64,000 nucleotides of DNA, taken from contig CAJNDS010000197.1 of assembly GCA_905221605.1 (NCBI GenBank), positions 1-64,000 on the forward strand. The letters are read 5' to 3'. The position numbers were made by a program, and so were the translations under genes. Source of the DNA: Symbiodinium natans. Its lineage: Eukaryota; Sar; Dinophyceae; Suessiales; Symbiodiniaceae. Below, in pieces: positions 4,284 through 46,139 of this stretch. The notes beneath the pieces are model-generated. The model was not told the DNA's origin, ran no database searches, and worked only from the letters and a program-made list of their open reading frames with translations. How positions within the stretch are numbered: position 1 is the stretch's first letter; every line of letters begins with the position of its first letter.

Positions 4284-4355
4284 GGCAAGCAGCTACAGAG
4301 CTACTGAGAAAGAAGCGAGGACACTGTGGCCCCCCAAGCAACACACAACAAGAAA

Positions 4356-6886: not shown

Positions 6887-7184
6887 GGCGAAGAAGAGGC
6901 AGCCTACCCAGTTGATGGGGCAAGGTAGAGGAAGACTGGGCAGTCTTGCCTGAGAGCCGTGCCGTCCAGCGCAAAGAATGTCACACAACAACAAGCTTGC
7001 TCCCAACTTCCCCTGACTCAGCTCCCTTCAGTTGGAGACTACATCAGCAGTATAACATGATCAATGGTTACAACTTTCCAAATCGGTCAAGACAACAGCA
7101 TGACATTACAGGAATGCCGCATGACCATGGATAACGACCGATGTACTAGGCCGCCGTTTGTTCCGTCTTCGCACAAGGTCAGCG
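6887..7184. other. Spacer, no gene seen
   Basis: About 300 bp between two minus-strand ORFs. It may contain the upstream exon of the hydrolase (in-frame open sequence to about 7006, no ATG), otherwise nothing recognisable. Confidence 0.3.
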
Positions 7185-7901
7185 TTAGATGTCACTATCC
7201 GAATGCCGATTGTCCTCAAGCAGATGCATGGTCTCGTCATCTAAATGCTCGAGAATGTCGGTAGCAATACGTTCATAGAGGAAGCACGCTACCCACTCCA
7301 GAATGACGGCATTATCATTGGGGACAGCATCGGACATCGCTTGCAAAAGCAAATTGACTTTATCGGCAGTGAAACGCCATGCAAGCAAAAGATGCTGCTC
7401 CAAATGTGCTTTTATGAGGTAAATTGGAAAATCTTCCTGGCTAGGCACAATGATTGGCCTGGCCCAGGCTAAAAGGGCATTCTGCTGTGGTCCAGGCGGA
7501 CGTCTGAACATAGCCAGTAACGCCCCGTACTCCTGGGCAAGCTCGTTCCTCAAATCCTGCGAAAGATCTCGAAGGTGGTGTGCAAGCCAGGCACGATGAC
7601 CTCCAACAGAGTGCGCGAGTTCGGCCGCAGCAACCATGGCGAGGGTCCGTTGATTAGGACGTCCTTGGGCTGCCGAGGCATCGCGGATTCCTTGCAGTAC
7701 GAGGAGCTTGGTGAGCGATATCCAGCCAGCACTACAAGTGTGGCCGTGGCCTTCGAGGATGGGCTCGCTGGAAAAGATCTCCGGGTGTTCGTAAGGGTAG
7801 CATCTTTCCCAGTCACTGTCGCCATCTCCATTGACCAGTGTAAAGGCTGCCACCAATGACCAACGAAGCAGCCATGCCGGGCAGTTAGTTCGGGGAGGGC
7901 A
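7185..7901 (-). CDS. Unknown helical protein with N-terminal hydrophobic segment (partial)
   Basis: Product not recognised. The minus-strand frame ends at 7185 after an acidic tail (LEDNRHSDSDI). It reads upstream through an amphipathic, mostly helical protein of about 235 residues, with segments such as LSQDLRNELAQEYGALLAMF and IKAHLEQHLLLAWRFTADK. Its start lies in another exon: no in-frame ATG precedes the hydrophobic stretch PAWLLRWSLVAAFTLVNG, which looks like a signal peptide, and an acceptor-like CAG occurs just upstream. The reading frame is uninterrupted and the composition is protein-like, so I consider it a genuine exon. It joins three other minus-strand ORFs nearby that also begin with hydrophobic leaders. 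Confidence 0.45.
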   Translation of the reverse strand, partial: CPPRTNCPAWLLRWSLVAAFTLVNGDGDSDWERCYPYEHPEIFSSEPILEGHGHTCSAGWISLTKLLVLQGIRDASAAQGRPNQRTLAMVAAAELAHSVGGHRAWLAHHLRDLSQDLRNELAQEYGALLAMFRRPPGPQQNALLAWARPIIVPSQEDFPIYLIKAHLEQHLLLAWRFTADKVNLLLQAMSDAVPNDNAVILEWVACFLYERIATDILEHLDDETMHLLEDNRHSDSDI

Positions 7902-8045
7902 AGCGGGCGCCTGCTCCTGTGAGCCCTGGCGGCACAGAACAAGGGGGCAAGTTAGCGGGTAACACCATCACTCCTTTATGTTCGCGGCTGAGAGGGCTAT
8001 GAGCCACAGGAACAAACTGTCAATCCATGCGGGGGACTAGGGCGT

Positions 8046-8296
8046 GTGAGTGCGGGCGCACTCACGTACCCAACATCAAATCACTCCCGCACCCTCACAA
8101 GATTCTCCGCAGGTAATACTCGGGAGCAAGGGAGCAACCCGAACGGGAGCTCCTGAGCCGCTTCATCGAGCCCCTGCTCGGAAATTGCGGTGGGGGGTCA
8201 CTGCTCGTCAAACTTGTACAGAGAAGGTAAATGGATCTACTGCCTTGAGAAGAGATGCAGGTTCCTACACCGCCGTGTGCGGGCGCACTCACGTCG
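8046..8296. repeat. Segment flanked by a direct repeat with hairpin potential
   Basis: GCGGGCGCACTCACGT occurs at about 8051-8067 and again at about 8279-8294, about 228 bp apart. The left copy sits in a small hairpin (GTGAGTGC loop GCACTCAC). A run of ten T follows the right copy at 8302-8312. The arrangement could mark a short inserted element, but no coding sequence lies inside. Confidence 0.35.
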
Positions 8297-8743
8297 CATG
8301 ATTTTTTTTTTTGGACTGACGCCTCTTTACTACATCAGTAGCACAGTAGGCCGGTCTTGTTGGGCTCGACGTAAAGGGTGAAACAAAGTCAGCGCACACA
8401 ATCCGCCAAACACACCAAGCAACCACCAAGCAAACAAACACCAAAGAAACAAAGCGAGCAATCGCGCTGAACTACTAGATACCCCACGGACTCAGTACTC
8501 GAAGTCGTCAATGAAGTCCCGGTTCACAAGGAAGCACAGAGCTTGTGGGGGAATCGCAAATTGCGACATTGCCAGATTCTCAAAACCACCATCATGTAGC
8601 CACTGGTGCGACAGCGGTTATTCAAATCGAGGGTCATCAGATTCGGATCACGTACTCGTTGTCAAGGACAGACAACCGACACTCAATGGCGAAAGGATGT
8701 TGCAAGTCAGACTCCCTGGGGGGGATGAAAGATGTGCATACCC
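8297..8743. other. Non-coding stretch
   Basis: Contains a T10 run (8302-8312) and an A/C-rich tract of CAAAC/CCAAG words (8390-8455). No credible gene. Confidence 0.4.
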
Positions 8744-9057
8744 CATGGTGGTCAGCCAGTGGGGACTTAACAGCAAGAACAATCAAGGCAAGACCGGCCC
8801 AGGGCACTCCATGGTGGTCAGCCAGTGGAGTAGCTCCGAGCTCTGGGTGCTCCATTCACCTTGGCGTGCAAGTGCCCACCCAGAGCACAGGCACATGCCC
8901 CATGGAAGTCAGCCAGTGGGGACTTGACAGCAAGAACAATCAAAGCAGGACCGGCCTAGGGCACTCCATGGTGGTCAGCCAGTGGAGTAGCTCCGAGCAC
9001 AGGGTTCTCCAGTCAACCTGGCGTTCAAGTGCCCACCCAGAGAGGTGCCGCGCACGA
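8744..9057 (+). repeat. 157-bp tandem duplication with internal CCATGG motif
   Basis: Two imperfect copies with a period of 157 bp (first starting at 8744, second at 8901). Each contains two occurrences of a conserved 20-mer, CCATGGTGGTCAGCCAGTGG or a one- or two-base variant, at about 8743, 8810, 8900 and 8967. The 263-residue ORF spanning the area is only a by-product of the repeat. The same motif in reverse complement occurs near 26,019. Confidence 0.75.
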
Positions 9058-9529
9058 CTAGAGGGAGGCGAGAGTAGCTGCAGCTACCGATTCCACGGGG
9101 AGAGTCCACACAGCGAGTTACCAAACCCTGAACGCCACAGGGTTTATAATGACAACGAGGAGGAACCTCCCAGTCCAGACATCTCACAAGGCCACGCAAC
9201 CTTGGCGCTGGCCTGCGCATCCGCACGCATCAGGTCCCTCCAAACCCAAACCCGCGAGGTGCGTCGGTCAGGAGATGGAAGGGCTCACATCACATTGGTG
9301 CCGAATGCAAGGATCTCCATAGTATTGCTACTTTGATTCGATCAGAGCCTTCAAGTAACATCCACGCGGGCGGGGAGCCACTTGCCCTGCCGCAGGCAAG
9401 CTCAGACGAGGGCGACCCTCCAGAGTCCCAAGAGGGCCAGATTGTTCTACAAGTGGGGAATGGCACTCAGTAAGAGGCCGGGAGCACACATGTAGCACCG
9501 AGTGCGCAGGTGCGTCGCAAAAGGAAGAA

Positions 9530-9705
9530 ACAGAAGAAGAGAGGGTTTTTTCTTGGCCCCGCACTGTGGTTGAAAAAAAGACAGAAGTTTTTTCTTGACC
9601 CCAATACCTTTTCCAAACAAAAAAAAAAACACGGAGGGTTTTGAAAAAGACACTTTGGGGCCAAGAAAAAAACCAGCTCGGACTTATCTGCAGACAGGTG
9701 ACTTA
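9530..9705. repeat. Degenerate repeats of GGGGCC-(A)n / (T)n type
   Basis: Alternating T-rich and A-rich tracts joined to GGCCCC or GGGGCC words (for example TTTTTTCTTGGCCCC and GGGGCCAAGAAAAAAA), partly palindromic. It resembles the repeat cluster at 24,000-24,260. Non-coding. Confidence 0.4.
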
Positions 9706-9792
9706 AGAGGTCTTTCTTGGCAAGAACCTTTTGACGTTTTTCCATGCAATCCCGGGTGATCCTTTGCCAACTTTGTTTGGAATTTTCTTTAA

Positions 9793-10088
9793 CGAGCACT
9801 TGTGCCGCTTCAGCGAGCACTTATGCCGTCGGCGAGCATTTTGCCGCTCAGTCGTCCAAGAATTTCTGTTTTGAAAACTTTCCAAAGAGATGTTTTTTGT
9901 TTTTTGTTTTTGCAGCTCTGGTCGAATGAAAGTTTTCATGCAAGCATCGTGCCGCTCTTGACGAGCACTTGTGCCGCTTCAGCAAGCACTTGTGCCGTCG
10001 GCAAGCATTTTGCCGCTCAGTCGTCTAAGAATTTCTGTTTAGAAAACTTTTGAAAGAGATGTTTTTTTATGTTTTTTGCAGCTCTGCC
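9793..10088 (+). repeat. 169-bp tandem duplication
   Basis: Two diverged copies start at 9793 and 9962. Each begins with CGAGCACTTGTGCCGCTTCA, repeats the phrase GAGCACTT/GCCG internally, then runs through TTTTGCCGCTCAGTCGT, AATTTCTGTTT, AAAGAGATG and a T-rich tract to GCAGCTCTG. No coding capacity of note. Confidence 0.7.
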
Positions 10089-10254
10089 ACATTGTGTTAG
10101 ATCAAGTCTGATAAAATTTTTTAGAATTCTCGCGATCCTGTGTCCGCGCAGTGGACACATCTCTGGAAATTTTTTTAGCTTCTGCACCTCGAAGAAAAAG
10201 TATCCTGGTGCACAGGTGTGTTGTCATTGCCATTTTTGCAGGCTTTATTAAGGC

Positions 10255-10821
10255 TTTTGGGTTGAAGACGCAACTAAGGAAGCTTTTTGAGGCTTGAGGA
10301 AGGCTGAAGGGGGCTTAAGGGGGATCCTGAGGGCTTCAAGGAGGGCTTAAGGGGGGGAGGGCTTTGGGGGTGCTGAGGTGTTAAGACGAGAGAGAAGAGA
10401 TTTATTCTAAATCCACCCCTCTGAACCTTTTCATTCAAGTGAGACTTTAAACAGGTTTTTCTTGAAAAATGAGAGAGGGGGTTTCTTCTAAATTCACCCC
10501 CCTCGAATCTTGTTTTGTTTTTTCGATTTCATTTTTCGAAACCAGAGAAGTGAGACGCTAAACATTAACTTCTCTTCAAGAAGTGAGAGAAGGGAATTTT
10601 TTTCAGCCAGACCCTTTGAAGGCGCTTCTAAGCGGGAGTTAAGGGGCTTAAGGGAGGCTTCAGAGGGCTTAAGGGGGAGCTGAGGGGGGGGCTTAAAGGG
10701 TTTGAACCTTTTGCCTTCCCGAAAAAAAGTCATTGCTTAAAGGGAGCGTGAAGGAGGGCCAAATGGAAGAAGAGAAGAGTCGAGAATTTTAAATTCCACC
10801 CCCTTAGTTTCTTGTTATCCT
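10255..10821 (+). repeat. Degenerate outlier copies of the 676-bp repeat family
   Basis: Contains GGGGGCTTAAGG-type low-complexity sequence and two diverged copies of the sub-unit seen downstream, recognisable by AAATTCCACCCC and AGAGAAGTGAGAC. Probably an older, decayed part of the array that follows. Confidence 0.5.
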
Positions 10822-12848
10822 GAAGGGGCTTCAGGGGGGGCTTCAGGGGGGGCTTAAGGGCTTAAAGGGGGCTTAAAAGGGGGCTTAAAGGGGGCCTTAA
10901 GCGGGGGGCTTGGGGGGGGGGCTTCAGGAGAGGAGCTTAAAGGGTGTTGAAGGTGTTGGGCCGCCCTTTTGGTTTAATTATATTCTTTAAGAAAAGAGAG
11001 AAGGGATTTATTCTAAATTCCACCCCCCTGAAACCTTGTTGTTTTTTGGTTTCATTATTCGAGGCCAGAGAAGTGAGACTCTAAACAGTAATTTATCTTG
11101 AAGATGAGAGAGAGGGATTTATTCTAAATTCCACCCCCCTCGAATCTTGTTTTGTTTTTTGGACGTCTTTTTTCGAAACCAGAGAAGTGAGACTCTAAAC
11201 ATTAACTTCCCATTAAGAAGAGAGAGAAGGGAATTTATTCTAAATTCCACCCCCCTCGAATCTTGTGATGTTTTTGTATTTGGTTTTTGGATTTCACTAT
11301 TCGAAACCAGAGAAGTGAGACTCTAAACATACATTTCAATCTTGCCCGGCTTAAAAAAAGCGGGGGGGTTGGGGGGGGCGCAGCCCCCCCCATTTGCAAA
11401 CACGATGCTTGCATTATGGGCTTAACAAGCATTCTTATGCTTTGAAGCAAACCTGCCCGGCTTACAACAAGGAGGGCCTTTTGTCAAGGTGAGGCTTGAA
11501 GGGGCTTCAGGGGGGGCTTCAGGGGGGGCTTAAGGGCTTAAAGGGGGCTTAAAAGGGGGCTTAAAGGGGGCCTTAAGCGGGGGGCTTGGGGGGGGGGCTT
11601 CAGGAGAGGAGCTTAAAGGGTGTTGAAGGTGTTGGGCCGCCCTTTTGGTTTAATTATATTCTTTAAGAAAAGAGAGAAGGGATTTATTCTAAATTCCACC
11701 CCCCTGAAACCTTGTTGTTTTTTGGTTTCATTATTCGAGGCCAGAGAAGTGAGACTCTAAACAGTAATTTATCTTGAAGATGAGAGAGAGGGATTTATTC
11801 TAAATTCCACCCCCCTCGAATCTTGTTTTGTTTTTTGGACGTCTTTTTTCGAAACCAGAGAAGTGAGACTCTAAACATTAACTTCCCATTAAGAAGAGAG
11901 AGAAGGGAATTTATTCTAAATTCCACCCCCCTCGAATCTTGTGATGTTTTTGTATTTGGTTTTTGGATTTCACTATTCGAAACCAGAGAAGTGAGACTCT
12001 AAACATACATTTCAATCTTGCCCGGCTTAAAAAAAGCGGGGGGGTTGGGGGGGGCGCAGCCCCCCCCATTTGCAAACACGATGCTTGCATTATGGGCTTA
12101 ACAAGCATTCTTATGCTTTGAAGCAAACCTGCCCGGCTTACAACAAGGAGGGCCTTTTGTCAAGGTGAGGCTTGAAGGGGCTTCAGGGGGGGCTTCAGGG
12201 GGGGCTTAAGGGCTTAAAGGGGGCTTAAAAGGGGGCTTAAAGGGGGCCTTAAGCGGGGGGCTTGGGGGGGGGGGCTTCAGGAGAGGAGCTTAAAGGGTGT
12301 TGAAGGTGTTGGGCCGCCCTTTTGGTTTAATTATATTCTTTAAGAAAAGAGAGAAGGGATTTATTCTAAATTCCACCCCCCTGAAACCTTGTTGTTTTTT
12401 GGTTTCATTATTCGAGGCCAGAGAAGTGAGACTCTAAACAGTAATTTATCTTGAAGATGAGAGAGAGGGATTTGTTCTAAATTCCACCCCCCTCGAATCT
12501 TGTTTTGTTTTTTGGAGTTCTTTTTTCTAAACCAGAGAAGTGAGACTCTAAACATTAACTTCCCTTTAAGAAGAGAGAGAAGGGAATTTATTCTAAATTC
12601 CACCCCCCTCGAATCTTGTGATGTTTTTGTATTTGGTTTTTGGATTTCACTATTCGAAACCAGAGAAGTGAGACTCTAAACATACATTTCAATCTTGCCC
12701 GGCTTAAAAAATGCGGGGGGGTTGGGGGGGGCGCAGCCCCCCCCATTTGCAAACACGATGCTTGCATTATGGGCTTAACAAGCATTCTTATGCTTTGAAG
12801 CAAACCTGCCCGGCTTACAACAAGGAGGGCCTTTTGTCAAGGTGAGGC
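10822..12848 (+). repeat. Three near-identical 676-bp tandem copies (higher-order repeat)
   Basis: Copies start at 10822, 11498 and 12174 with the words GAAGGGGCTTCAGG and differ at only a few positions. Each copy is itself layered. It has a G-rich part of GGGGGCTTAAAG units, then three about-100-bp sub-units marked by ATTCTAAATTCCACCCCCCT and CCAGAGAAGTGAGACTCTAA, then a GC-rich inverted repeat (GGGGGGGCGCAGCCCCCCC) within a segment beginning CTTGCCCGGCTT. Repeated small ORFs on the minus strand at the same phase in each copy are repeat by-products. High identity implies a recent expansion or gene conversion, or possibly an assembly feature. Confidence 0.9.
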
Positions 12849-12931
12849 TAGGGGAAGCGGCTGCGGCCTGCACCTACCCGACGCCTCCTTTGTGCAGTGA
12901 CGTGGCGCGGGGCTAAGCCGAGAACCCATGT

Positions 12932-13060
12932 TTTAGGGTTTAGGGTTTAGGGTTTAGGGTTCAGGGTTTAGGGTTTAGGGTTTAGGGTTTAGGGTTTAGG
13001 GTTTAGGGTTTAGGGTTTAGGGGTTTAGGGTTTAGGGTTTAGGGTTTAGGGTTTAGGGTT
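12932..13060 (+). repeat. Interstitial telomere-type array (TTTAGGG)n
   Basis: About 18 units of TTTAGGG with one TTCAGGG variant and one extra G. This is the plant/dinoflagellate-type telomere repeat. It lies internally, between the 676-bp array and the 518-bp array, so it is an interstitial telomeric sequence rather than a chromosome end. Confidence 0.95.
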
Positions 13061-14270
13061 TTGTTTTGTTTTGGAGATGATTCATATGCTTCCACGCAAA
13101 CTTGCTCGGCTTAAAGAAGCGGGAGGGTTGGGTAAAAAGCCCGGGGGTTGGGGCAAACACGTTGCTCGCGTCAGAAGTGGATTCAAATGTTTTTGTTTGC
13201 CTCTTAAAATGCCTCATTGACAGCTGCCTAAACCCTTTGTGCAGATGTTTTGTTTTGTTTTGGAGATGATTCAGATGCTTCCACGCAAACTTGCCCGGCT
13301 TAGCGGGAGGGTTGGGTAAAAAAGCCCGGGGGTTGGGGCAAACACGTTGCTCGCGTCATGGGTTTGAGTGGATTCAAATGCTTTTGTTTGCCTCTTAAAA
13401 TGCTGCCTAAAAACCCTCCACAGAAGGGCCAGGAAGTATTTCGCCTCTTACACTGCTGCCCAAACCCTCCAGAAAAGACCCAAAAGGCCCAGCAGGTATT
13501 ACGCCTCTTAAACTGCTGCCCAGACCCTCCAGAGAGGGCCCAGCAAGGATTAGGCCTTTAAACTGCTGCCTAAACCGCCACAGAGGGCCCAGCAAGTGTT
13601 ACGCCTCCTAAACTGCTGCCCAAATCCTCCAGAAAAGACTCCGCAAGTATTGGGCTTTTTAAACTGCTGCCTAAACCCTCCACCAGGCCCAGCAAGTGTC
13701 GAGTGGGGTGGGCATTGGGCCTCATTGACAGCTGCTTAAACCCTTTGTGCAGATGTTTTGTTTTGTTTTGTTTTGGAGATGATGCATATGCTTCCACGCA
13801 AACTTGCCCGGCTTAAAAAGCGGGAGTGTTGGGTAAAAAAAGCCCGGGGGTTGGGGCAAACACGTTGCTCGCGTCATGGGTTTGAGTGGATTCAAATGCT
13901 TTTGTTTGCCTCTTAAAATGCTGCCTAACAACCCTCCACAGAAGGGCCAGGAAGTATTACGCCTCTTACACTGCTGCCCAAGCCCTCCAGAAAAGACCCA
14001 AAAGGCCCGGCAGGTATTACGCCTCTTAAACTGCTGCCCGGACCCTCCAGAGAGGGCCCAGCAAGTATCATGCCTTTTAAACTGCTGCCTAAACTCCCAC
14101 AGGGGGCCCAGCAAGTGTTATGCCTCTTAAACCGCTGCCCAAATCCTCAAGAAAAGACTCCGCAAGTATTGGGCTTTTTAAACTGCTGCCTAAACCCTCC
14201 ACCACAGACCCAGCAAGTGTCGAGTGGGCATTGGGCCTCATTGACAGCTGCCTAAACCCTTTGTGCAGAA
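13061..14270 (+). repeat. 518-bp tandem repeat, two full copies and a deleted one
   Basis: Full copies at about 13243-13751 and 13752-14268 (the word ATGGGTTTGAGTGG recurs at 13358 and 13876, 518 bp apart). A shorter deletion derivative is at 13061-13242. Each copy starts with (TTTTG)n and GGAGATGATTCA, then a segment with TTGCCCGGCTTA and GGGTTGGGTAAAA related to the end of the upstream 676-bp unit. It finishes with six to seven about-50-bp sub-units of the type CTCTTAAACTGCTGCCCA and CCTCCAGA. Cysteine/proline-rich ORFs here (CCPDPPE motifs) are repeat artefacts. Confidence 0.85.
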
Positions 14271-14334
14271 GGCCCAAGCCCCCCTTAAACCCGTACTTCA
14301 TGTCCCTTCAAGCCCCCCTTGAACCTCCCTCGAA

Positions 14335-14680
14335 GCCTCCTTGAAGCCGTAAGCCCTCTGGGGGGCGTAAAGGGGGGGCTTTAAGGAGACTTTAAGGACG
14401 GCAGAAAGGGGGGGGGCTTGGCTTTAGGGGGGGCTTTAAGGGGGGCGTTAAGGGGGGCTTTAGGGGGGGGGGTGCTTAAGCGGAGGGCTTTAGGGGGGGG
14501 CTTGAAGGGGGGCTTTTAAGGGGGGCTTCAGGGAGGCAAAAGGGAGGGGCAAACGGGGGGGCGTAAGGGGGGGGGCCTGGGCTTAAGGGGGAGTAAGGGA
14601 GGTTAAGGGAGGGCTTTAAGGGGGGCTTAAGTGGGGGCTTAAGGGGGGGGCTTAAGGGCTTTGACCCTTTGCCCCCCCCC
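14335..14680 (+). repeat. G-rich low-complexity tract (GGGGGCTTAAG)n
   Basis: Long G runs separated by CTTTAAG, CTTAAG or CGTAAG. The same motif builds the G-rich part of the 676-bp repeat. It has strong potential for G-quadruplex structure. Non-coding. Confidence 0.8.
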
Positions 14681-15253
14681 CTCGGGGCCCATCCTCATGC
14701 TTCGAGCGTTTCAGCGAGAGAGACTGAAGACCCACTGAAACCTTTGAAGTTTTCCTGGAAAATACCGCAGTGAGAGCGATCGAGTGCTGACGTAGTGGAG
14801 ACAAGAGCGGAATTTGTGCAGAGCGGATGTTTTCGATTCTGGTGGGGGGATACCTTGGTCTAGGTTGGAGTCGGAGCACTGTCGTAAGCCCATGATTGTT
14901 CTCGTGGTCATGTTTGCGCAATCGCACCTTGTCTGGCGCTCAAAAAAATCCGCACGGATGCCGCTGCTGTTTTTTGTATTTCTGGTCCGAATCTGAGAGT
15001 GAATAGTGGCCTAGTGAGTTTCCTGGTTTGGAAGTCATCGTCGAATCATCGGCGCAGGCGGAGGAGTGTCTGCGGTGCTTGAAGAGTTCAATTTCGGTTG
15101 GTGTTCTGTTTTGTGGGCTGATGCTGCCCCTTTGGTCAGGATGTTGCTCTCTGTCCTGGACGTTGAGCAAATGTCGCACACGCAACGACGCGTCTCGTAT
15201 CTCGAAGGTTGTGGTGTCCAGACAGTCTAGACATGCTGCCTCACGCTAGCATT
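14681..15253. other. Boundary zone before the plus-strand coding block
   Basis: Repeats stop near 14,690 and unique sequence begins. Short ORFs exist on both strands but none is convincing. If the three-module transposase ORF belongs to a larger element, its left end could lie here; I could not see a terminal inverted repeat. Confidence 0.3.
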
Positions 15254-16340
15254 CTTCCTTTTGACCGTGCTGCCAGGTCAGCGAGCTCTTCGACATGCCC
15301 ACCATCTCGCGAGCGATTTGCAAATTCAGGTCTTGCGTTTGCGAGGCGCGCTGGTGCGCTCCCAGGAGGCTGTACACGCTCTTCGACACCTTGTTGTCCT
15401 GCCCTCTTTTCGTGGTGGGCAGCATGGCGAACTGGTTCGCCGCATTGCTTCATGCCTGTATTTGCCTTACGTTCCTTGCTCTGATTTGTGCAGCTGCGTT
15501 TTTCTAGCGCACCAACCAAGGCCGAATTTCTCTTCCCCTCTATGGGCGCACCGACCTCGCCACTTGTGCGGGTTCTTTCCCTCCATCCGTGTCCGCGGTG
15601 CGTGCAGTTGTCTCTTCGCGAGCCGCTGTTGGGCCCGGTGCCCCTCGAGGGCCTCCTGCGGCTGCAGCATGAGGCGCGCGCTTGAGCTTCGTCTTGGGTT
15701 CAACGGCGCCAAGAAGTTTCATGTGCGCAGGTCCTGGCACAGCGCGACTTCGTTCATGCGTTGACTTTGGCATTGATCCGGCTAACTGCACGTGTCTGTG
15801 CTTCCGAAAACTTGGAGGGCTTTCTCTTCTGGGAACTGGGGTGCATCTAGTTTACAGTCTAAGCGCGGTCCGTACGGCCCTGTGAATGTTTGTGATTGTT
15901 GCTGCCGCTGTTCCCAGAATCGTTCAGTGAGCAATCGTTCAGCAAGCGTGCTGTTGCAGCTTCAGCGTTTGAGAAGAAAAGCTGCTTCGGATTGCTTGCC
16001 TTCAGCGCTTCTTTCCAGCTGCTTCGATTCTGGGCTGGCCTGATCTGAGCCTGGCAGGCAGACTACGTGTTAAGTCTGGGCCTCAACTTGTGTTCTGCCA
16101 TATTCTGCACACTTCTTGACTCAATCCTGTATATGCTTTTGCAGAACCCCAGGACATGCTCGACAGCTTGGAAGACACATGACTCGCAGCTGCTCTATAA
16201 ATTCTACAAGCAAGTGTGATGCAGCATCGCCGTGTCTAGTTTTCAGACTCTTGCAGTTTCGTTTAAGCAGCGTGCGCGCTTCGGCTCAGGCGCGAGACGG
16301 TCAAGAACTCAAAGCTGAGGAGGCTGGGTTTCGTTGAGGG
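15254..16340 (+). CDS. Candidate multi-exon gene, product unknown
   Basis: Not recognised and only tentatively a gene. A plus-strand frame around 15276-15450 reads as a charged, leucine-rich helical segment (DLQIQVLRLRGALVRSQEA, VHALRHLVVLPSFRGGQH) like a coiled coil. Further protein-like pieces follow in other frames behind pyrimidine-rich, AG-ending acceptor-like sites: about 15494 (after TTTGTGCAG), about 15919 (after GTTCCCAG), about 16145 (after CTTTTGCAG) and about 16252-16337. That pattern suggests short introns of the kind seen in the gene at 22,303. I could not build a single consistent frame. It lies directly upstream of the giant ORF, on the same strand. Confidence 0.25.
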
Positions 16341-16577
16341 CTGCAAGGGATCTTCATACGCTTGCAGCGAACGCAGAAGTCAACCTGACGAGGTGCTCCA
16401 GCCGACCTTGGGCTGTGTTTTTTTTGGAATGCTGCGTGGAGTCAAAAAACCTGCCCGAGCCATCGTTTTGAGGCGGTGTCGGACAGTGAGCGTGACCTGC
16501 AACATCGGGAGCATGTTTGTGTCGCTTTTGCAGCCTTTGGTGCAAGTTGCGAGTTGTGATTGTCCTCAACGTAACTA

Positions 16578-19500
16578 TTGGTCTGTGCTATGTCCCTCCT
16601 TGGCCGCCCCTTGCGTTTGGGTCCCGACCACCAGCGTGTGGCCCCGGGATTCGTGGTGGCGGAGGTTGACACCGTCCTGTGGGCTTCCCCCACGTCGTGG
16701 AGTGTTCGCTCTCGCGTTCGCCGTGGCGATGTTTTTCTCGCAACCAGCTTTGTGAAACAAGTGGGCCCATGGACCATGCTTCCTGTGCATGGCGGTGGTG
16801 CGGTGGAAGCTAAATCCTTTCGGGCGGCCATGGCAGATGACCTTAAGATCGCAGCTCACGTCGTGGTCTTGGATCTTGATAGCAGAATCAAAGTCCGTTG
16901 CGCGCAACCGCGACGTGTCCGGAGCACTCGGACTGCAGCGCCGCCCTGTGAGCGCCTTCCCCTGCCTCCGGATGACTGTTGTGCTGTGTCTGACACGGTC
17001 GCATGCTCATTTCGTGAAGTGCTTCTCAAAGCCGTGCGCATGTGCTGCGGTCTGACCCGGAAAGACCGGAACCGCCTCATGCATGCGCTGTTCGGCAACA
17101 CTGGCCGCCCGATTCCCTCCCCCAATGCACACGTTGGCTTTGCTAACCCTTCTCTGACAACTTGCTATCTGGGATCTGCGTTGCAGATGCTACTGGCAGT
17201 GCCGTCTGTTACAGACACCTTGTCATCTATGACAACTTTGTGCCGCAGCGATGCTTGTCCTGTTTGTTTGTTATGTACCACTGCATTGAGCGTACGTTCT
17301 GCCACGCAGCCTGTGCTTCTCTCATCGTGGGGGGCGTGGATCCGTGCCATCGGGCGAGACTTCGCAGAGTATCAGGATGCAGGTGAAATCCTGCGTTCTT
17401 TGCTGGTGGCCATGTCTGCGCACATCTCGCATCCTGACCTTGACTTCGGGCATTTTTTCCGTTTCAAAATCATGGAAGAAGTTGCGTACGCATGTTCCGC
17501 TGGGTGTCCCCCGCCAGCAGAGCGTCATAACCTTCTCGCCGAAATTATGTTGCCGGTTTCCGTGTCCTGTTGCTCGGAGGTGTCTTTGGAGGGCTTGCTG
17601 GGAAGCTACTTCGACCAAGAGGAAATCATTCTCCCAGAAGGCCACTCGCCGCCGCAATGCGTGTGCACTCAGCTTCTGACACGTGCCGTGCGTCGTCGGC
17701 TTGCGACGTTGCCGGAGTGGTTTCTCTTGGACATCAAGCGCCAGGACGGCGAGCCGGCGGTGGTTCTCAGTCGTTTCGATAGCATCGTGCTATCCGGAAC
17801 GACTCTGGACTTGGTAGGGGCTGTGACGCGCCATGGGCAGCATTTCATGGCGCATGTTCGGCGCAATGACTCGATTGTCACCTTCAATGACGACTGGGTG
17901 TCGCTGTCTTCTGCTTGGCCCGAGTCGGTGTACGCGTGTAGCACAGTGCTGTTGTTTGCACGCCGGCCCGCCTCGCCAACCATGCCTCTTTCTTCAGCCT
18001 CCACGCAGCGATCCCTTGCAGATGACGCTGCCACCTTGCTATCACTGTATGCTCAGCGGAAGAATGTGGCCTGCGTGCAGTTCCTGCAGTCCTTGCCGTT
18101 GTTTTTGGTGCCCGATAGTGTGCAGCTCAAGGATTTGCCGCATCACCTTCGTGCTGCCATAGAAATCTTGCAATCCGAGGCCATCAACGCCGCGTCGGCT
18201 CTTGAGTGTCGGTTCAGCTATCACGACAGCATGCTGTATCCCTTGGCTGTGCTGCTTGAGGCAACGGCGATCGCCTCCGGCATGCCTGCTATCTTCTACA
18301 TTGATACCGTGCATGGCCTGGTGAACTCCTTATTCCATCATCGCCTCTGCGTGAATTTGGGAAAGTTTCCTGAGTCCCGAAGCCGTTATTGGTTTTCAGG
18401 AACCGGGAACATAGGGGATGGCAAGTCACCTGCAGTGAAACCCATCGTTTCCCTTTTGGATTCGGTTCTGGAACGCCATCCGCATTTGTGCGTGGGCACG
18501 GCTGTCGATCGGTTTCATTATCAGCAAAGTGGTACGACTGCCGCTGCAATTGACAAGCTTCGTCAGTGTGAGGGGTACCTGACAGTCCATGCGGACGAAG
18601 CAGGCCGTTGTTTGTGTCCCAAGTTTGCTTCCGGAGGCGAGACAGATGTGAGCAAGTTTGTGGACCTTACTCACTTCTTCGATGCTGCGCACGGTGGCGA
18701 ATTCTCTCACACCAATAAGCTGGAGCGGCAAAAATATCTTGGCAAGAAACGGAGAGGAGATCCGAAGGGGCCCGTGCCGACCGAGCTGGAGTTGCACATC
18801 AAACACACCAACGTTCACTTCCTGTTCCTTCAGCAGGAGCATCATTTCAGCCATTTCTTTGCTCAGGCAGCAGCCACCCGTCCCACCGGGCTTGCCCAGC
18901 GGTTCTTGTTTTCCTTTGGGGCGTACGAAAACCCTAGCCAACAAGATCACCATGGCTTCTTTGAGCAGATTGCTGCTCCAATCATTTCGCGCTTGTTTGA
19001 GCTTGTGCTGACCCGTTTCGGCCCGCGAATCCCTGCTGCGGAGGAGATTGCGTTCCGGATCTCCGATGCCCAAGAATCCACCGTGGCTTCTCTCAGCGAA
19101 ATGGTTTTCATGTTTGCCCGCCGCCGCGGCCGAGATGCGTTTCGAAGTGCTTTGCCCAAGAGCTTGTACTGGCTAGGCACGTCCTTGCTGACCAATCATG
19201 TCTTGGAGCAGTTGTGGCCGCATGTTCTAGACAATACGGTGCCGTCCCAGTACGACCTCAACATTTCCGATGATGCGTTTGTGGCAAGCGTGCATTTTAT
19301 GCACAGGCGCTACCTCCGGGGCCAATCAATTTTGGCTGTCAACGTTGAAGAGAGGACGTGGTTCTTCTCTGATGCTGACCAGTTGACGGACGAGCAGGCG
19401 CTCTTTCTCCGCATTTTGCGTGGTTGCTCCACCCGCTCTGTTACAGTGGAGGCTTGCTGTCGTTGCGACTTGTGGTTGAAGTGCGAGATTCGCCAGCGGT

Positions 19501-22052
19501 CCCCTGCTGCGCTGGACTTGCTACAGCAGTTTTGGCAGCTCTGTTTTGATTTGAACCTGGGTATTTTGATCGGTGACCTTCGGAGCGATCCCCTCGTTTG
19601 CTCTCTGCGAAAGCACCACTTGTCGTGTCTCCACGACACTGCACGCACGTGGCTTGTACGCCATCGCATTCCACTTGAGAACTGGACTTTGTTCCCAGTC
19701 GATCCGAGCGAAGTCCCACAACAGGCTGCCGTTGCAGCGCGTGCCGCGCGGTGGAACTTCCGCGGGAGTGCTACGTCCGCGACTGCGCCGACCGCGCCTG
19801 ATGCCCCCACAGCGCCAGCTTCTGTTCAATCGGACGCTGCGCGTGACCCAGATGCCTCGTCCAAGCTGACTCCCGCCAAGCGCGACCCAGGTGCCTTGGC
19901 CCAGGCGCGGCCTCCAACTGAGTGCAAGCCAGGTGCCTTGTCCTCACTGCCTCCCCACGAAATCACTGTGCCTGTTCGTCGCCAGGGTGATGTGGCACGA
20001 TATCTTTCTGGGCACGCCGCCTGCAGAAGCTTTCGGCACAGGGTACATTATTCACACTTTGATGATACCAAGTACACCTTCCAGGTGCATTGCTTGGAAG
20101 GGGCTGCTTGTCCTTACAAAGTTCATGCCACGTACTTCCGCCAGCCTGCCGGGTACAAAGCGGGGACCCTGTTACTGACGGCCGTGGGAGATCACAGTAC
20201 CCACGACGGGTGCGCTCGAAGCGGAAAGATTTTCACCCCCGAGCAAGACAGTGTTGCTCAAACTTTCTTGCGCGCCGGTGGCGGCTGTCCCAAGCTTCTG
20301 CTGCGCAAGTTGCAGGACGAGTGCCGAGGAGGTCGGCTGCCTGATAAACGTCAGCTGACGAATTGGTTGCAACGTGCAAAGCAGAAGCGGGACGCAGACA
20401 GTGCGAAGCCAGAGCCCATCGACCGAAACCGCGCTGCAACTCTTGGCTGTAGGCTCTCACAATGGAACCGGGTGCCTGAAGCCGTGACGGACTTGTATAC
20501 GTTCGCAGATCACATTCGCTTGGACCCGCTGGAGATATTTGTGCCGTTTGCTTGCCAAGGCTTGTTGCAAGTCATGAAGCGGTGGTGCGGTTCCGAGGTG
20601 TGCTTGGTTGTGGATGTCAAAATGAAAGTTCTGGAGCGTGGTCGAGGCATTGCAACTGCAAGTTTGCTCACCAAGACAGGCCTGCGGAACACCCGGTTGG
20701 GAGAAGGTCGCAAACAGGGCAAGGCCTGCGCGTCACGACCCTTTCCTCTCCTGCAGGCTATTGTGGGCTCCGAGTCGCATGAAGTCATCTCATCCTTCTT
20801 CAACCTTCTGTGTACTGTCTGGGATACGCATGCAACGCATTGCGTGCCACTGCGGGACCATGTGGTGCAAGTCCACAAAGATTTTGCGCCAGGCTTAGAG
20901 TCTGCGCGTAAAGCCTGTTTCCCTTGCAGTCGCCCGTGTGATGACTATTATCACTTTAGGCAGAAGCACCTTGAGCTCGACAGTCGTTTGTCGCACACTG
21001 CGTTGGTAGCAGGCAGATTTCAGAAGGCTCATCTTGGGTGGCTGCAAGCCGTTTTAGGATCCCTGCGGCTTCTACCTCGCGCCTCCATCTTTGACGCCTG
21101 CTGGCGAGGACTGCTAGCCCGCCTCACATCCATGGGCGAATGCACTGTGGCTGCGTACTTGGACAACACGTACACCGCTGCAATGCCACAGGCTCTCTTG
21201 CGCCACGAGCACGAATACTTGCCACATCATCGGTTTGCAGGTTGGTGGGTCGGATGTCGGGGCATTGTTTCGGGCACTGGCTGCGGCAGTAACCCTGCAG
21301 AAGCCATTCACAGTGCATGGCAGTCGAAACTCGAGTCCGTGGGTGGGCGTGCACCGTTGGGTGAAGTCCTTGGAGTCATGCAAAACCTGTATGCTGACCA
21401 CTGGTTAGACTCCTTTGATTGGGCCTCCGACACTGCGCTGCACTTGCAAAGCGTGGATGTTGATCCCACACATCTGCACGGTGTGCAGACTCTCAGTGCC
21501 GTTCACCGTTCTGCCGCGACGGAGCTGTTTCGTAGCCACTCTGAGCTCAGCCCTTCCTTCCATATTTACGACATTGAAACGGATGCTCTGTCCGTTGTCG
21601 CAGTTCGTATGTCTTGTTATGCTCCCGTACTCGCTGAGGACATGGCGCAGCTTGGTGTGCAGCTTCTAGTCTGCTCGCCTCACCAGGTGAAGCATTTTTT
21701 GCAAGAGGCTGGTGTCCTGCGCTGTGCAGGGGCAGCGTCGGAGTGGGAGTTTCAATATGGTCCGTGCAAGAAGCTCTTTGACAATATCGCTTACGTGACC
21801 GTTGAGCCTGCGCGGCTAGCTTGCACGTGTTTGCCTTATGCTCTGTGGGGCGGCTGCGAGCACATCCTGCTTTGTCGTGGGCTGACGTTCTCGCACCGTC
21901 AGGCCGATCTCAGCTTGGAGAATGTGCGTATCAGCAAGCCTCGTGGCCGCCCTCCCGGCGCCCGCGCGAGGCAGGCCATGGGCAAAGCTCAGCCCAAACC
22001 AGCTCCGAAAAAGGTTCGGAAGCCACGGAAAGTGTATCCTGAGTTGAAGTGA
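16578..22052 (+). CDS. USP-like protease / DUF3987-like P-loop / MULE transposase fusion
   Basis: One intronless ORF of 1,824 residues with three modules. (1) About 185-460: ubiquitin-specific protease fold with Cys box NPSLTTCYLGSALQ (Cys196), QDAGE (266-270), PEWFLLDIKRQ, and His box GQHFMAHV (His422) with FNDDW (Asp438/439), so the triad looks intact. (2) About 480-1050: DUF3987-like P-loop module with GTGNIGDGKSP (608-618, Lys616), a DEAG Walker-B-like site and TGLAQRF. (3) After an Ala/Pro/Thr linker (about 1055-1140): Mutator-like transposase with a WRKY/GCM1-like zinc finger (Cys1172, Cys1178, His1206, His1209), DDE residues Asp1346, Asp1435 and Glu1575, a SWIM finger C-x-C-x8-C-x-H (1749-1762) and an AT-hook (RGRPP, 1789-1793). 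All key residues are present, suggesting recent function. Expected role: cut-and-paste DNA transposition in the nucleus, with the protease perhaps removing ubiquitin from the transposase or host factors (inference). Confidence 0.85.
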   Translation: MVCAMSLLGRPLRLGPDHQRVAPGFVVAEVDTVLWASPTSWSVRSRVRRGDVFLATSFVKQVGPWTMLPVHGGGAVEAKSFRAAMADDLKIAAHVVVLDLDSRIKVRCAQPRRVRSTRTAAPPCERLPLPPDDCCAVSDTVACSFREVLLKAVRMCCGLTRKDRNRLMHALFGNTGRPIPSPNAHVGFANPSLTTCYLGSALQMLLAVPSVTDTLSSMTTLCRSDACPVCLLCTTALSVRSATQPVLLSSWGAWIRAIGRDFAEYQDAGEILRSLLVAMSAHISHPDLDFGHFFRFKIMEEVAYACSAGCPPPAERHNLLAEIMLPVSVSCCSEVSLEGLLGSYFDQEEIILPEGHSPPQCVCTQLLTRAVRRRLATLPEWFLLDIKRQDGEPAVVLSRFDSIVLSGTTLDLVGAVTRHGQHFMAHVRRNDSIVTFNDDWVSLSSAWPESVYACSTVLLFARRPASPTMPLSSASTQRSLADDAATLLSLYAQRKNVACVQFLQSLPLFLVPDSVQLKDLPHHLRAAIEILQSEAINAASALECRFSYHDSMLYPLAVLLEATAIASGMPAIFYIDTVHGLVNSLFHHRLCVNLGKFPESRSRYWFSGTGNIGDGKSPAVKPIVSLLDSVLERHPHLCVGTAVDRFHYQQSGTTAAAIDKLRQCEGYLTVHADEAGRCLCPKFASGGETDVSKFVDLTHFFDAAHGGEFSHTNKLERQKYLGKKRRGDPKGPVPTELELHIKHTNVHFLFLQQEHHFSHFFAQAAATRPTGLAQRFLFSFGAYENPSQQDHHGFFEQIAAPIISRLFELVLTRFGPRIPAAEEIAFRISDAQESTVASLSEMVFMFARRRGRDAFRSALPKSLYWLGTSLLTNHVLEQLWPHVLDNTVPSQYDLNISDDAFVASVHFMHRRYLRGQSILAVNVEERTWFFSDADQLTDEQALFLRILRGCSTRSVTVEACCRCDLWLKCEIRQRSPAALDLLQQFWQLCFDLNLGILIGDLRSDPLVCSLRKHHLSCLHDTARTWLVRHRIPLENWTLFPVDPSEVPQQAAVAARAARWNFRGSATSATAPTAPDAPTAPASVQSDAARDPDASSKLTPAKRDPGALAQARPPTECKPGALSSLPPHEITVPVRRQGDVARYLSGHAACRSFRHRVHYSHFDDTKYTFQVHCLEGAACPYKVHATYFRQPAGYKAGTLLLTAVGDHSTHDGCARSGKIFTPEQDSVAQTFLRAGGGCPKLLLRKLQDECRGGRLPDKRQLTNWLQRAKQKRDADSAKPEPIDRNRAATLGCRLSQWNRVPEAVTDLYTFADHIRLDPLEIFVPFACQGLLQVMKRWCGSEVCLVVDVKMKVLERGRGIATASLLTKTGLRNTRLGEGRKQGKACASRPFPLLQAIVGSESHEVISSFFNLLCTVWDTHATHCVPLRDHVVQVHKDFAPGLESARKACFPCSRPCDDYYHFRQKHLELDSRLSHTALVAGRFQKAHLGWLQAVLGSLRLLPRASIFDACWRGLLARLTSMGECTVAAYLDNTYTAAMPQALLRHEHEYLPHHRFAGWWVGCRGIVSGTGCGSNPAEAIHSAWQSKLESVGGRAPLGEVLGVMQNLYADHWLDSFDWASDTALHLQSVDVDPTHLHGVQTLSAVHRSAATELFRSHSELSPSFHIYDIETDALSVVAVRMSCYAPVLAEDMAQLGVQLLVCSPHQVKHFLQEAGVLRCAGAASEWEFQYGPCKKLFDNIAYVTVEPARLACTCLPYALWGGCEHILLCRGLTFSHRQADLSLENVRISKPRGRPPGARARQAMGKAQPKPAPKKVRKPRKVYPELK

Positions 22053-22302
22053 CCGCGCTCAGCACATTGGCGCTGGATGTCTCGCTCCGTCGGACACGAC
22101 AGAGTCCTTGCCGGCACCTGGTGTAGCTGTGAGATGCCATGCGAAATGACAAAAGCTGTGTGCCATTGCCACGTGGTCTGCCTGTGTGTGCCTAGCAGCA
22201 GCATTGAAGCCAGTTGCGCGCCGTGCACAATGAGCATGGGTTGTTGCCTGCAGCTTTCGGTTGCGTGCTTTCTGGTTTCTTTGCTCGTTGCTACGTAGCT
22301 TC
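22053..22302. other. Spacer after the giant ORF
   Basis: 250 bp between two plus-strand coding regions. No terminator or inverted repeat was identified by eye. Confidence 0.3.
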
Positions 22303-23687
22303 ATGGCTGGGACACGCGTCTCCAAGCACACCAAGACAAGGCTGGCGTTCTCATTCGTTCTTAGGATGTGCCTGCTTGAACAGTGGCCAGGCGTGGCGGT
22401 CGAAGCGGCTGGCAACGTGCCCAGCAACCTGCCGCCTTTGTGCGAAGCAACGGTCGGGTTATGGGAGGAGTGCCGCCCGAAGCTTCACGTCGCGGCCTTG
22501 GCTTTATGTCCTGCTGACGTTGGTGCCTGTTGGAAGTGGATTAGGCAGCTCGGCAAGCAAGGTCGAGGTCAAGGCGGGCGCTTGCTGCTAGTCAGTTATA
22601 TATACGTTTGCTTGAGTCGTAGGAACCTATTGCTTTTGGTAGAACTGGCTTCCGGCAGCGGAAGCGGCCTATACCACCTTCCGGGTGGCCTTGCTGGGGC
22701 TCCTGCACGAGTGGCATGTTCGTCTGCAAGCTTTTTGCAGGCAACTTTTCATGTCTAAATGTGCGCATTCTTGTGAGTCTAGCACCTTCTCCTTCTCGTG
22801 CTATCTCCACTGTGTGCATCATCCAGGACAGTTCAGACGCATGCTGCGACGGTGGAGATGCAAACGCACCTCTTGCAGATGGTCAAGGCAGTGGACTTAG
22901 TTTCGTTCTCAGATGTGATGTGCCGCAGTATAGTGACATAGTATGTGACACCTGTGCGTTTCACGGTCATGGTAACGGGCTGGTGCGGCGCCCTCAAGAG
23001 ATTCCCTCCTCTCCTGCGTGCTAAAGGCCAAGTGGGAGGATGTACGTGCAGCACACCTGGATGCGTCTCTTTGCCGAGCTCTTCCCGAGGGATGGTTTTT
23101 TGGAAAACTTGCGCAGACACTGCCGGGTGTCGTAACAGCTGCTCTCCGGCTGCATCTCTGCTTCTTGACAGATTGACATTGTTCTCTGCTTTTTCTGCGC
23201 CTTCAGGACTTCGAACCATCCCCGTGTACCGAAGAAGCGCTCTTGGCTCATGTCAGCCGTGCTGTTGCACGTCTGGAAGGCTTCGTGCGTCCGCTCTCAT
23301 ATCTGCAAGAGCGGGTTTGTTCTGTCCGGCAGGACACCCAGAACCTCGCAATATTGAGGTTCGTCGTTTGCTCAAGTGACTCGAGTGTGCTCGCGTGTGT
23401 TTGCTGTTGTTTGCCTTCGAAACCTTTCCTTGTAGGACGTCGGCCCCTATGAGCGCACTGAAGGGCGGGTGCAGAAAGTCATCCCAGTTTCCAAAGGGGC
23501 CGCTTTCTTGGTCTTGATAGAGTTTCGTTTGGACAAAGATGGGCCCCTACTCGGTCTTAGCGGAATCATAGACAGCTCCGAAGCCATTGTGCGTGGTGAT
23601 CTGGCTTCTTTTTCGATTGGCTGGCGGCGGGATCGAGGCACGTGGGTACGCACGGCCGTCGCAATTTCAAAGCAGCCGGACATCTGA
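22303..23687 (+). CDS. Six-exon gene, product unknown (about 338 residues)
   Basis: Product not recognised, but the gene structure is self-consistent. Proposed exons: 22303-22590, 22643-22752, 22827-22932, 23027-23131, 23207-23362 and 23436-23687. All introns are GT-AG, 52 to 94 nt long, and every junction keeps the frame (phases 0, 2, 0, 0, 0). The start is ATG in MAGTRVSKHTKTR; the end is SKQPDI-stop. The protein is mostly helical, with Leu/Ala-rich amphipathic stretches (AAYTTFRVALLGLLHEWHVR, VEMQTHLLQMVKAVDLVSF, LLAHVSRAVARLEGFV) and a beta-rich C-terminus (AAFLVLIEFRLDKDG). The fourth intron could instead use a GA donor at 23171. It follows the transposase ORF on the same strand by 250 bp and might be an accessory gene of the same element or a host gene. 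Confidence 0.55.
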
Positions 23688-23819
23688 GCGCAGAGACTCT
23701 TGACTCTTGCTTGAGAAAAGCAGCAGTGTTTGCATTTGCAAACATGCGGTGTCTTAGCCGTCGTCGTAGCAGATACAAGCCGGCCCCCCCTACCTGTCCA
23801 GGGAACCAGCCCCTAGTTC

Positions 23820-23945
23820 TCAATTTCGGGTTTAGGTCGAACTTTAACTTTAGCGTTTGGAGCTTTTGGGGGTTAAGGTTTCAAAGCTTGAGGTTTAGGG
23901 ATTCAGAGTTTAGGGTTTTGGGATTTAGGGTTTGGAGTTTGGAGT
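23820..23945 (+). repeat. Degenerate telomere-like repeats
   Basis: Decayed GGTTTAGGG and GGTTTGGAG words, about 125 bp, with no intact run longer than two units. Confidence 0.6.
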
Positions 23946-23999
23946 TGTGAACTGCACCTGTTCGCTTGCAATGCATGTTGCACCTCCTTTTTGAAGCTC

Positions 24000-24262
24000 T
24001 GTGTGTTCGGCAAAGGTTGAAAAAAAAACATTCCGGGGTCCGAAAAAAGAAGCGGGGTCGGTCACAAGACGCTGCGGGGTTGAGAAAAAGACGGTCGTTC
24101 CTTCTTTGACGGCTGCGAACAGGGTCGTCAAAAAGACATTTTTGTTTTTTTGGGCCCCGTAACGAGGCCGGGAAAAAGACCGAGGCCAAAAAAAAGACTT
24201 TCCGGGGTTGAAAAAGGTCGCGGGGTCGGAAAAAAAACATTCCGGGGCCAGGAAAAAGAGAA
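24000..24262 (+). repeat. Short interspersed CCGGGG-(A)n-GAC tandem repeats
   Basis: Eight to ten degenerate units of about 25-30 bp, typically TTCCGGGGTC followed by GAAAAAAA and an optional GAC. Minus-strand ORFs rich in Phe/Pro (FFSDPATFF-like) are translations of the repeat. Related in style to 9,530-9,705. Confidence 0.6.
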
Positions 24263-24264
24263 GC

Positions 24265-24770
24265 CCAAGCCCGCGGAAAGCCAGCCTGCGCACCCATCAT
24301 GCAGAGCAACACAGTCTCGGTCTGTGATCTCATGTGGCGCGCACTTGCAGCGGGACCCGCCATGAACCTACTGAACCAGGTGCAAGACTCGGGTGTGCTG
24401 ATCGGAATCGCTGACACGCTACTGCGTCTGCCTGAAACGTTTCCGGCGTCTTTTTGAAGGTTTATACCCTATCATCACGCAGTGCCTCAGATTGTTGCAG
24501 CATTTCGACCTTGCTGAAATGTTGGATTGCCCGGTCTCGCAGCTGGACAAAGCGAGGCTTTCGGAGTCCCTGGTGGGGTATGGCTTTCTTACACAGCGCA
24601 GTACATCGCGGATCTTTTCTCTGCGGTGTCGGACTTGCCGAGTGTCATCAATGCCAGTTTTCCTGCAATGCTCAGCTACGCTAACCCAGATTATTGGCTG
24701 GGTGCACTTCTGCTCACATTCGAGTCCCACCAAAAAGGTCCCCTGGAGCGTACGGCAGGGCTGCCCATTG
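24265..24770 (+). pseudogene. Degraded, probably retrocopied paralogue of the gene at 4.4-5.5 kb
   Basis: The plus strand encodes MQSNTVSVCDLMWRALAAG, identical over those 19 residues to the minus-strand gene at 4356-5528. It then has shortened versions of the following part (two internal deletions) and LQDSG/GIADTLL/LPETFPA with a stop just after. Beyond the point that matches the exon end (DPIITQ) it continues with new protein-like sequence, LRLLQHFDLAEMLDCPV and DKARLSESLVGYG. A frame change follows, then AQYIADLFSAVSDLPS and LSYANPDYWLGALLLTFE. The simplest reading is a copy of spliced RNA that preserves the next exon of the source gene. Stops and frame changes make it non-functional. Confidence 0.7.
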
Positions 24771-30330: not shown

Positions 30331-30335
30331 GAGTC

Positions 30336-30380
30336 CACCATCATGCACCATCATGCACCATCATTTGCACCATCTCTCTG
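30336..30380 (+). repeat. ACCATCATGC short tandem repeat in the leader of the transporter gene
   Basis: Three to four copies of ACCATCATGC or a close variant end four codons before the transporter ATG at 30384. They contain upstream ATG triplets in the presumed leader. Confidence 0.6.
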
Positions 30381-30383
30381 CCC

Positions 30384-46135: not shown

Positions 46136-46139
46136 AGGA

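Follow-up and report, generated by a model that had tools for sequence, protein, structure and literature searches.

The window analysed here is a 64,000-nucleotide stretch of Symbiodinium natans DNA, positions 1 to 64,000 of contig C197 in a 759-Mb assembly. One plus-strand reading frame within it, from the ATG at 16590 to the stop at 22052, encodes a ubiquitin-specific protease (USP), a DUF3987-like P-loop ATPase, and a DDE transposase in a single polypeptide, and this observation of the original prediction is confirmed. Overall, the best explanation, which we hold with good confidence, is that the frame belongs to a gene-bearing copy of a large DNA transposon of the Mutator-like element (MULE) type; we are more confident still that a mobile element carries this fusion. 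The reading draws on the architecture and its conservation, on the common ends and terminal repeats of the family, and on the 9–10-bp target duplications found on some derivatives.

Three modules in one reading frame

The frame is open from stop to stop over 1,825 codons (16575–22052), with its first ATG at 16590, and the interval originally delimited, 16578–22052, is 1,824 uninterrupted codons in one frame. A pattern for a relict spliced leader matched at chance level only. Failure of domain searches to find one of the three families had been named as grounds for abandoning the prediction, and with Pfam, the window's own protein yielded one of the three (UCH) and neither of the others; relatives and profile-profile comparison were therefore used. 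The latter was needed for the ATPase and transposase parts because nothing above cut-off was obtained for either in Pfam, PHROGs, NCBIfam, or PDB searches. The predicted order of USP, DUF3987, and MULE modules is thus supported by Pfam for the first and by profile-profile comparison for the other two; in separate Pfam searches of the parts, UCH was found above its cut-off, and DUF3987 and MULE/SWIM stayed below theirs. Conservation across a six-row alignment is highest in the ATPase (51–54% identity to three distant rows), followed by the transposase core (47%) and then the USP. The linker at residues 1037–1130 (19686–19967; this and all other features of the gene are on the plus strand) is poorly conserved, with 17–35% identity to homologues.

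The USP (UCH) domain comprises residues about 187–460 (17136–17957). Searched as a whole, the protein matched Pfam UCH at E 9.6e-5 and 22.5 bits, under the cut-off of 23.9, and residues 1–507 alone matched at E 7.3e-6 and 26.2 bits, above it. The catalytic set proposed was Cys196, His422, and Asp438 or Asp439. In an alignment with two sister frames from this genome, all five rows reaching Cys196 have it, and His422 and Asp438 are present in all eight; Asp439 was not conserved in the six-row alignment and is dropped. Sister frames on contigs C76 and C2320 matched UCH at E 5.2e-21 and 5.3e-10, respectively, and at E 0.001 the C76 USP piece matched 54 distinct sequences of solved structure, every one named as a ubiquitin or Ubl carboxyl-terminal hydrolase (best E 2.5e-11). 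The domain match and the Cys/His/Asp set together identify the module as a USP. It is probably an active deubiquitinase, because the triad persists while the remainder of the module changes.

The ATPase occupies residues about 550–1036 (18225–19685) and contains a Walker A motif at 608–618, DEAG at 673–676, and a GLAQRFLF motif. Gly613, Gly615, Lys616, and Ser617 of the P-loop and the DEAG are kept in six of six rows, as predicted, with the exception of Gly608, which is not conserved. Pfam DUF3987 (PF13148) gave no match on the window's own protein, and the window was not among the three matches of a PF13148 genome scan. Three relatives and one of two consensus pieces matched it at E 0.0023–0.18, all under the cut-off, the second consensus piece matching DACNG (E 0.0056) instead; the best score, on a consensus of distant relatives, was 17.6 bits against a curated cut-off of 27. 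The assignment was obtained with hhalign: over 313 columns, a profile of 13 family rows aligned with one built from seven proteins of phages and plasmids (Prob 82.2, E 1e-5). The Walker A, DE, QQ, and GLxxRFL motifs are in register, and the alignment is taken as homology. As controls, 30 column shuffles reached at most 0.32, and comparison with four other enzymes of one phage that act on nucleotides gave no more than 0.28. Three of the seven references are annotated as DUF3987, and the other four were recruited by similarity to one of those. Against single references, the Prob was only 0.13–2.9, so the link to DUF3987 rests on profiles. Searches of the viral and the prokaryotic contig collections, with two peptide patterns for each, found no relatives, and the homologue P0016 as query gave none in plasmids and one match at E 8 in phages.

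The transposase begins with a zinc-finger-like part (20022–20204), suggested by alignment and by a weak DBD_Tnp_Mut match (E 0.22 on the window's transposase piece; E 0.034, under the cut-off, in a relative). Its residues are Cys1172, Cys1178, His1206, and His1209; the two cysteines are present in eight of eight covering rows and His1206 in nine of nine. The catalytic domain (residues about 1320–1640; 20535–21497) includes Asp1346, Asp1435, Asp1456-x2-His1459, Trp1557, and Glu1575. In an 11-row alignment, Asp1346 was found in 10/10 covering rows, Asp1435 in 11/11, His1459 in 10/10, and Trp1557 in 8/8; Glu1575 was found in 8/10, the other two rows (R) being slices whose frame stops before that part. 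The domain therefore has the DDE triad, the (C/D)xxH motif, and the Trp between the second Asp and the Glu that characterize MULEs. Further on are a SWIM-type CxCx8CxH finger (residues 1749–1762; 21822–21863), whose Cys/Cys/Cys/His are kept in all 9–10 covering rows although Pfam scans gave no SWIM family match, and an AT-hook-like KPRGRPPG (residues 1787–1794; 21936–21959). The three catalytic acidic residues lie where they had been predicted, and the SWIM finger and AT-hook of the prediction have their counterparts in the SWIM-type motif and the RGRP hook.

Among Pfam models, the MULE profile PF10551 did not match the window's protein, which was also absent from its 16 genome matches. Relatives scored E 0.022 and 0.033 (15.1–15.6 bits), short of the 27.6-bit cut-off, which is of course a profile threshold and not a defining trait of the MULE group. 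One relative matched IS256 at E 0.023, under the cut-off, and the unrelated models CDC45 and ZrgA gave better E-values on it. With hhalign, 11 family rows aligned with two PF10551-matching elements over 237 columns (Prob 94.7, E 6.4e-8), which we take as homology; 30 column shuffles gave at most 0.78 and the reversed profile 0.21. The reference profile was built from two elements of the same genome, scoring 39.6 and 26.1 bits against the 27.6 cut-off.

Homologues, genomic copies, and sister groups

The search for the same module order elsewhere, which the original prediction had proposed, was productive in protein collections and within the genome. About 5.8 billion proteins were searched, with 8,000 candidates scored, and five were returned, all at E 0, with 42–71% identity to the window's protein and the module order kept. 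P0002 is 71% identical over 92% of the window's protein, P0003 (Symbiodinium sp. CCMP2592) 67% over 100%, and P0004 42% over 89%; the models P0005 and P0006 are shorter. According to its label, P0005 encodes 1,314 residues in a locus of 3,945 bases, and this gene model thus has no intron. Module-wise searches brought in five and six additional proteins, one of which (P0017) is named Effrenium voratum; all named sources are dinoflagellates. By themselves, these relatives point to a dinoflagellate host, probably one of the Symbiodiniaceae. Five outside proteins at this level of identity, two of them nearly full length, make the architecture more than a chance arrangement.

Within the genome, the protein search listed 33 matches, 26 of 108 candidates being scored. 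Among those listed are three full-length frames at about 100% (on C197, C398, and C1898), pieces on C319, C2068, and C465 at 91–98%, and more distant matches. The three intact frames differ pairwise by two, four, and six bases.

More divergent sister groups have a related arrangement. On C76, C1762, C1823, C1057, and C2320, a frame of 587–705 codons contains the USP and the start of the ATPase; there are seven such copies, one with an internal TAG, and six are followed on the same strand by a MULE part, one of the two tandem copies on C1762 having none of its own. C790 and C2162 contain a decayed ATPase and then MULE parts, in that order, with no USP seen. On C1907 (L019, C1907:356000–365999), an ASCH domain precedes the ATPase (E 1.4e-4, above cut-off), as does a stretch with the motif GDGACGLHAIF, which looks OTU-like, both in place of the USP; neither Pfam nor PDB searches confirmed OTU. 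C2031 (L024) has the same N-terminal part, of which pieces only were detected on C2402. The ATPase of C1907 and C2402 resumes after a gap of about 90 bases and is followed by the MULE frame, of which only the first 39 or 40 residues were found on C2031. Judged from these sequences, the predicted ATPase-MULE order recurs in four divergent groups and the USP in two of them.

Elsewhere in the same genome, a 2,357-codon open frame on C1557 has a DUF3987 match above cut-off (1123035–1123436, with its neighbours). C1557 is absent among the matches of the genome searches with the window's protein and the sister groups, in which the best candidates were scored.

Element ends and gene-less derivatives

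The element spans 14.7 kb of the window. Its left-terminal module (GAGCTGGTTTTTTTCTTGGCCCC, at 9657–9679 on the minus strand) lies at 9537–9680, also on the minus strand, and is recognized by a 146-bp inverted match of 95%; in both the window and C1898, it is inverted relative to the C398 copy. The right terminus is a 30-bp inverted repeat at 24237–24266, ending AGAGAAGCCC. Between them, at 9786–14660, are subterminal repeats common to other copies, comprising a 677-bp tandem unit, a TTTAGGG run, and G-rich short repeats. The TTTAGGG run (about 12936–13063) is telomere-like, lies inside the element, and adjoins the 677-bp tandem repeat.

The window and C1898 diverge at 24268. The last 369 bases before that position have 40 genome matches, of which 21 are short and 19 span at least 363 bases at 91–100%. 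Twelve of the 19 right ends were excised with their flanks, and all end AGAGAAGCCC and then continue into differing sequence. The right ends on C2266 and C2089 do likewise (C2089 with one base changed further in), and on C371 the contig ends before the last bases. All 14 readable right ends, of the 19 places, thus agree to the same base. With up to three mismatches allowed, the left end GAGCTGGTTTTTTTCTTGGCCCC occurs 20 times, including 11 exact matches, versus 0 and 1 for the reversed pattern. When the two ends of the C577 copy are compared in inverted orientation over their outermost 30 bases, 25 positions agree, a value equalled by one of 200,000 random 30-mers of the window, possibly the end itself. 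Perfect target duplications flank the copies on C577 (TCTTGCAGG, 9 bp) and C2234 (GGAGCTGTAA, 10 bp), and a pair of ends on C2014 has a 9-bp duplication with one mismatch. Terminal inverted repeats and, on some copies, target duplications within the 8–11 bp expected of MULEs accordingly occur in the family. The original prediction had expected them within 14.6–24 kb, a range that the left end, inverted and at about 9.5 kb, falls outside. An inverted-repeat scan of 11.0–16.6 against 22.1–28.0 kb gave a best value of 11, shuffles having a median of 12, and thus nothing above chance, because the left end lies further left and is inverted.

Comparison of 11 left with 13 right flanks produced two additional matches of at least 9 bp at new sites, both between contigs and each offset by two bases: the C398 left with the C1898 right flank (9 bp) and the C371 left with the C2187 right flank (10 bp). 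In addition, C2187 and C577 have the same 30-bp left flank but different right flanks on leaving the repeat. We read these cross-contig matches and the common left flank as the assembly switching between long identical repeats.

Other members of the family appear to lack the gene. Ten other copies were examined inwards for about 1.9 kb, and in that stretch none matched the window's protein at E 0.01. In four of them (L031, L034, L035, and L040), the right 441 bases are joined to the left repeats; in the other six, 501 bases correspond to the window's right end, without a match to the left repeats over 200 bases, and one of these six, on C319, has a decayed gene piece further in. The C2234 element at 1072199 had no trace of the protein over its whole 4.8 kb, nor did the C577 element in the 5,281 of its about 6,540 bases that were examined; a single block of 1,812 bases of the latter is unmatched in the window. 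Among the listed genome matches of the protein, none is on C2234, C577, C2187, C2014, or C371. The family therefore has gene-bearing and gene-less members, as cut-and-paste transposon families do.

The remainder of the window contains other genes and repeats. A 512-codon ferroportin-like frame (30333–31871, plus strand; FPN1 E 3.4e-58 over nearly the whole profile) lies about 6 kb to the right of the element. On the minus strand, 1–7967 has long frames of 756, 938, 471, 336, and 260 codons, and four of these five were scanned, with no Pfam match above cut-off. Positions 4616–4691 and 4380–4495 recur inverted at 24281–24482, with the intervening gap nearly lost, as in a processed copy, and another repeat, at 8304–8662, has an inverted counterpart, 96% identical, in the flank to the left of the copy on C2419. 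Long frames that overlap one another in several reading frames on both strands, at 44104–45503, are perhaps a tandem repeat, and their Pfam matches are probably spurious. The G+C content of 46001–50000 is 0.26–0.33, versus 0.42–0.64 in the remaining 2-kb steps.

Alternative explanations, related systems, and significance

Several observations weigh against reading the frame as the gene of a MULE-type transposon. The window's protein is below every Pfam cut-off for DUF3987 and MULE; for its USP part, no PDB chain came up at E 10, and the USP is the least conserved module, with 25 and 31% identity to the two distant homologues having it. Four of seven same-contig pairs of left and right ends have no target duplication, one of them being a second left end inside the C2234 pair, whose right end already has a perfect partner; the arrangement there may be nested. 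No target duplication was seen for the window copy, with its inverted left end. Furthermore, the window and C1898 are 99.7% alike over 16.9 kb (window 7412–24268), a likeness that reaches at least 2.1 kb beyond the left module, as far as the compared stretch extends. One locus may thus have been assembled twice, or a segment duplicated, and the number of independent insertions behind the three intact frames may be only two; C398 has a left flank differing from that of the other two, and on the right its contig breaks off within the element.

A domesticated MULE that gained the USP and the ATPase and now serves the alga as an immobile host gene would fit the conservation between sources with catalytic residues intact, as well as the rearranged left end of the window copy. 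It is very improbable given that three contigs carry near-identical frames, which have at least two different left flanks among them, and given the 19 common right ends and the gene-less derivatives, some with target duplications; the decayed copies at 91–98% also look like a repeat family that is dying and being renewed. We also regard it as unlikely that the USP and ATPase are functionless passengers that a MULE captured from a host or a virus. MULEs do tend to acquire host gene fragments (PMC6446971), and the USP is the fastest-changing module, but the Cys/His/Asp and Walker residues are kept across 42–71% identity, the triad also in a sister group. Moreover, the frame is intact in three copies, and the USP and the start of the ATPase form one frame in the seven sister copies, allowing for the single internal TAG.

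Membership of a DDE superfamily other than MULE with a similar (C/D)xxH core, ISL3-like or KDZ-like for instance, is about as improbable as the passenger explanation. It is suggested by DDE_Tnp_ISL3 being the best Pfam match of one family consensus (E 0.013, under cut-off; E 0.092–0.32 in single members), by the failure of every family protein scanned to reach the PF10551 cut-off, and by a motif that is DxxH, not CxxH. However, the two PF10551-matching elements with which the family profile aligned so far above its shuffles are themselves DxxH, and the IS256 match, the SWIM-type motif, and the 9–10-bp duplications all point towards MULEs.

For a MULE-type transposon, a mechanism can be proposed. 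The transposase part would bind the element ends and move them by cut and paste; this is the safest step because common termini, inverted repeats, and 9–10-bp duplications are typical of such an enzyme. The ATPase part would act on DNA or on the transposition complex, with unwinding, remodelling, or target capture as possible roles. No other part of the protein is as well conserved, which speaks for its being needed, and we judge the chances that transposition would require it to be even. The USP part, acting in cis, would deubiquitinate the transposase or proteins at the ends, which would spare the complex ubiquitin-dependent removal; that such protection in cis is its main function is a tentative suggestion that falls somewhat short of an even chance. 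The functions first suggested, namely protection of the transposase, removal of ubiquitin from chromatin, and an ATP-driven helicase or assembly factor, are likewise proposals. The original interpretation is accordingly supported in part: for the three modules and their order, the single intact frame, and the membership of a mobile element. Separate ATPases serve Mu and Tn7 transposition. A broader and more doubtful idea is that of an ATP-requiring lineage of eukaryotic DDE elements, in which a DUF3987 motor would serve end pairing, target choice, or strand separation and a deubiquitinase would counter extraction, with sister groups having exchanged the N-terminal protease before a constant ATPase-transposase core (USP in two groups, OTU-like beside ASCH in a third).

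The parallel drawn originally with plant MULEs that carry a protease is apt, and wider than first stated. Kaonashi (KIU)/VANDAL MULEs of plants have a conserved Ulp1 domain of unknown function (PMC13317346), and like the present family combine a MULE with a ubiquitin-family cysteine protease; theirs, however, is of the SUMO-protease type and in a VANC-type gene, and neither a transposase fusion nor an ATPase is described in the available part of that account. The cnidarian MULE MuDR-6_HM is tabulated with an Ovarian Tumour (OTU) gene (PMC6446971), that is, OTU in place of USP, and the entry does not list DUF3987. Helitrons carry VTD/OTU deubiquitinases and, in one transposon protein, combine deubiquitinase, helicase, and nuclease (PMC9741609), but as described there they use a rolling-circle HUH mechanism and other classes of helicase and protease. 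Ubiquitin-family proteases have thus already been met in transposons, in these accounts each of a class other than USP.

DUF3987 domains are described as predicted helicases of mobile elements (PMC5862659) and are reported in phage satellites (PMC10803314). The ATPases of phages, plasmids, and satellites are a related P-loop module by profile and are primase-linked, whereas here the module accompanies a eukaryotic DDE transposase. Muta1 of Aedes aegypti, an active MULE of 504 amino acids, has essential DDE, His, and Trp residues and an N-terminal zinc finger, and duplications of 8–10 bp are given as a MULE feature in the same article (PMC5225508). The spacing of Asp to His (24) and of Trp to Glu (18) is equal in Muta1 and the window's protein, but Muta1 is a transposase alone. 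In the open-access papers searched, no fusion of a USP or DUF3987 with a DDE transposase was found; entries elsewhere, in Repbase for example, are possible.

A USP fused to a transposase makes the question of whether transposons must fight ubiquitin-dependent removal directly testable, in one protein with one catalytic Cys. The ATPase ties a eukaryotic DDE transposase to a type of motor known from phages and plasmids. Finally, defined ends and short derivatives without the gene make the family a practical handle in a dinoflagellate, an alga of the coral-symbiont type.

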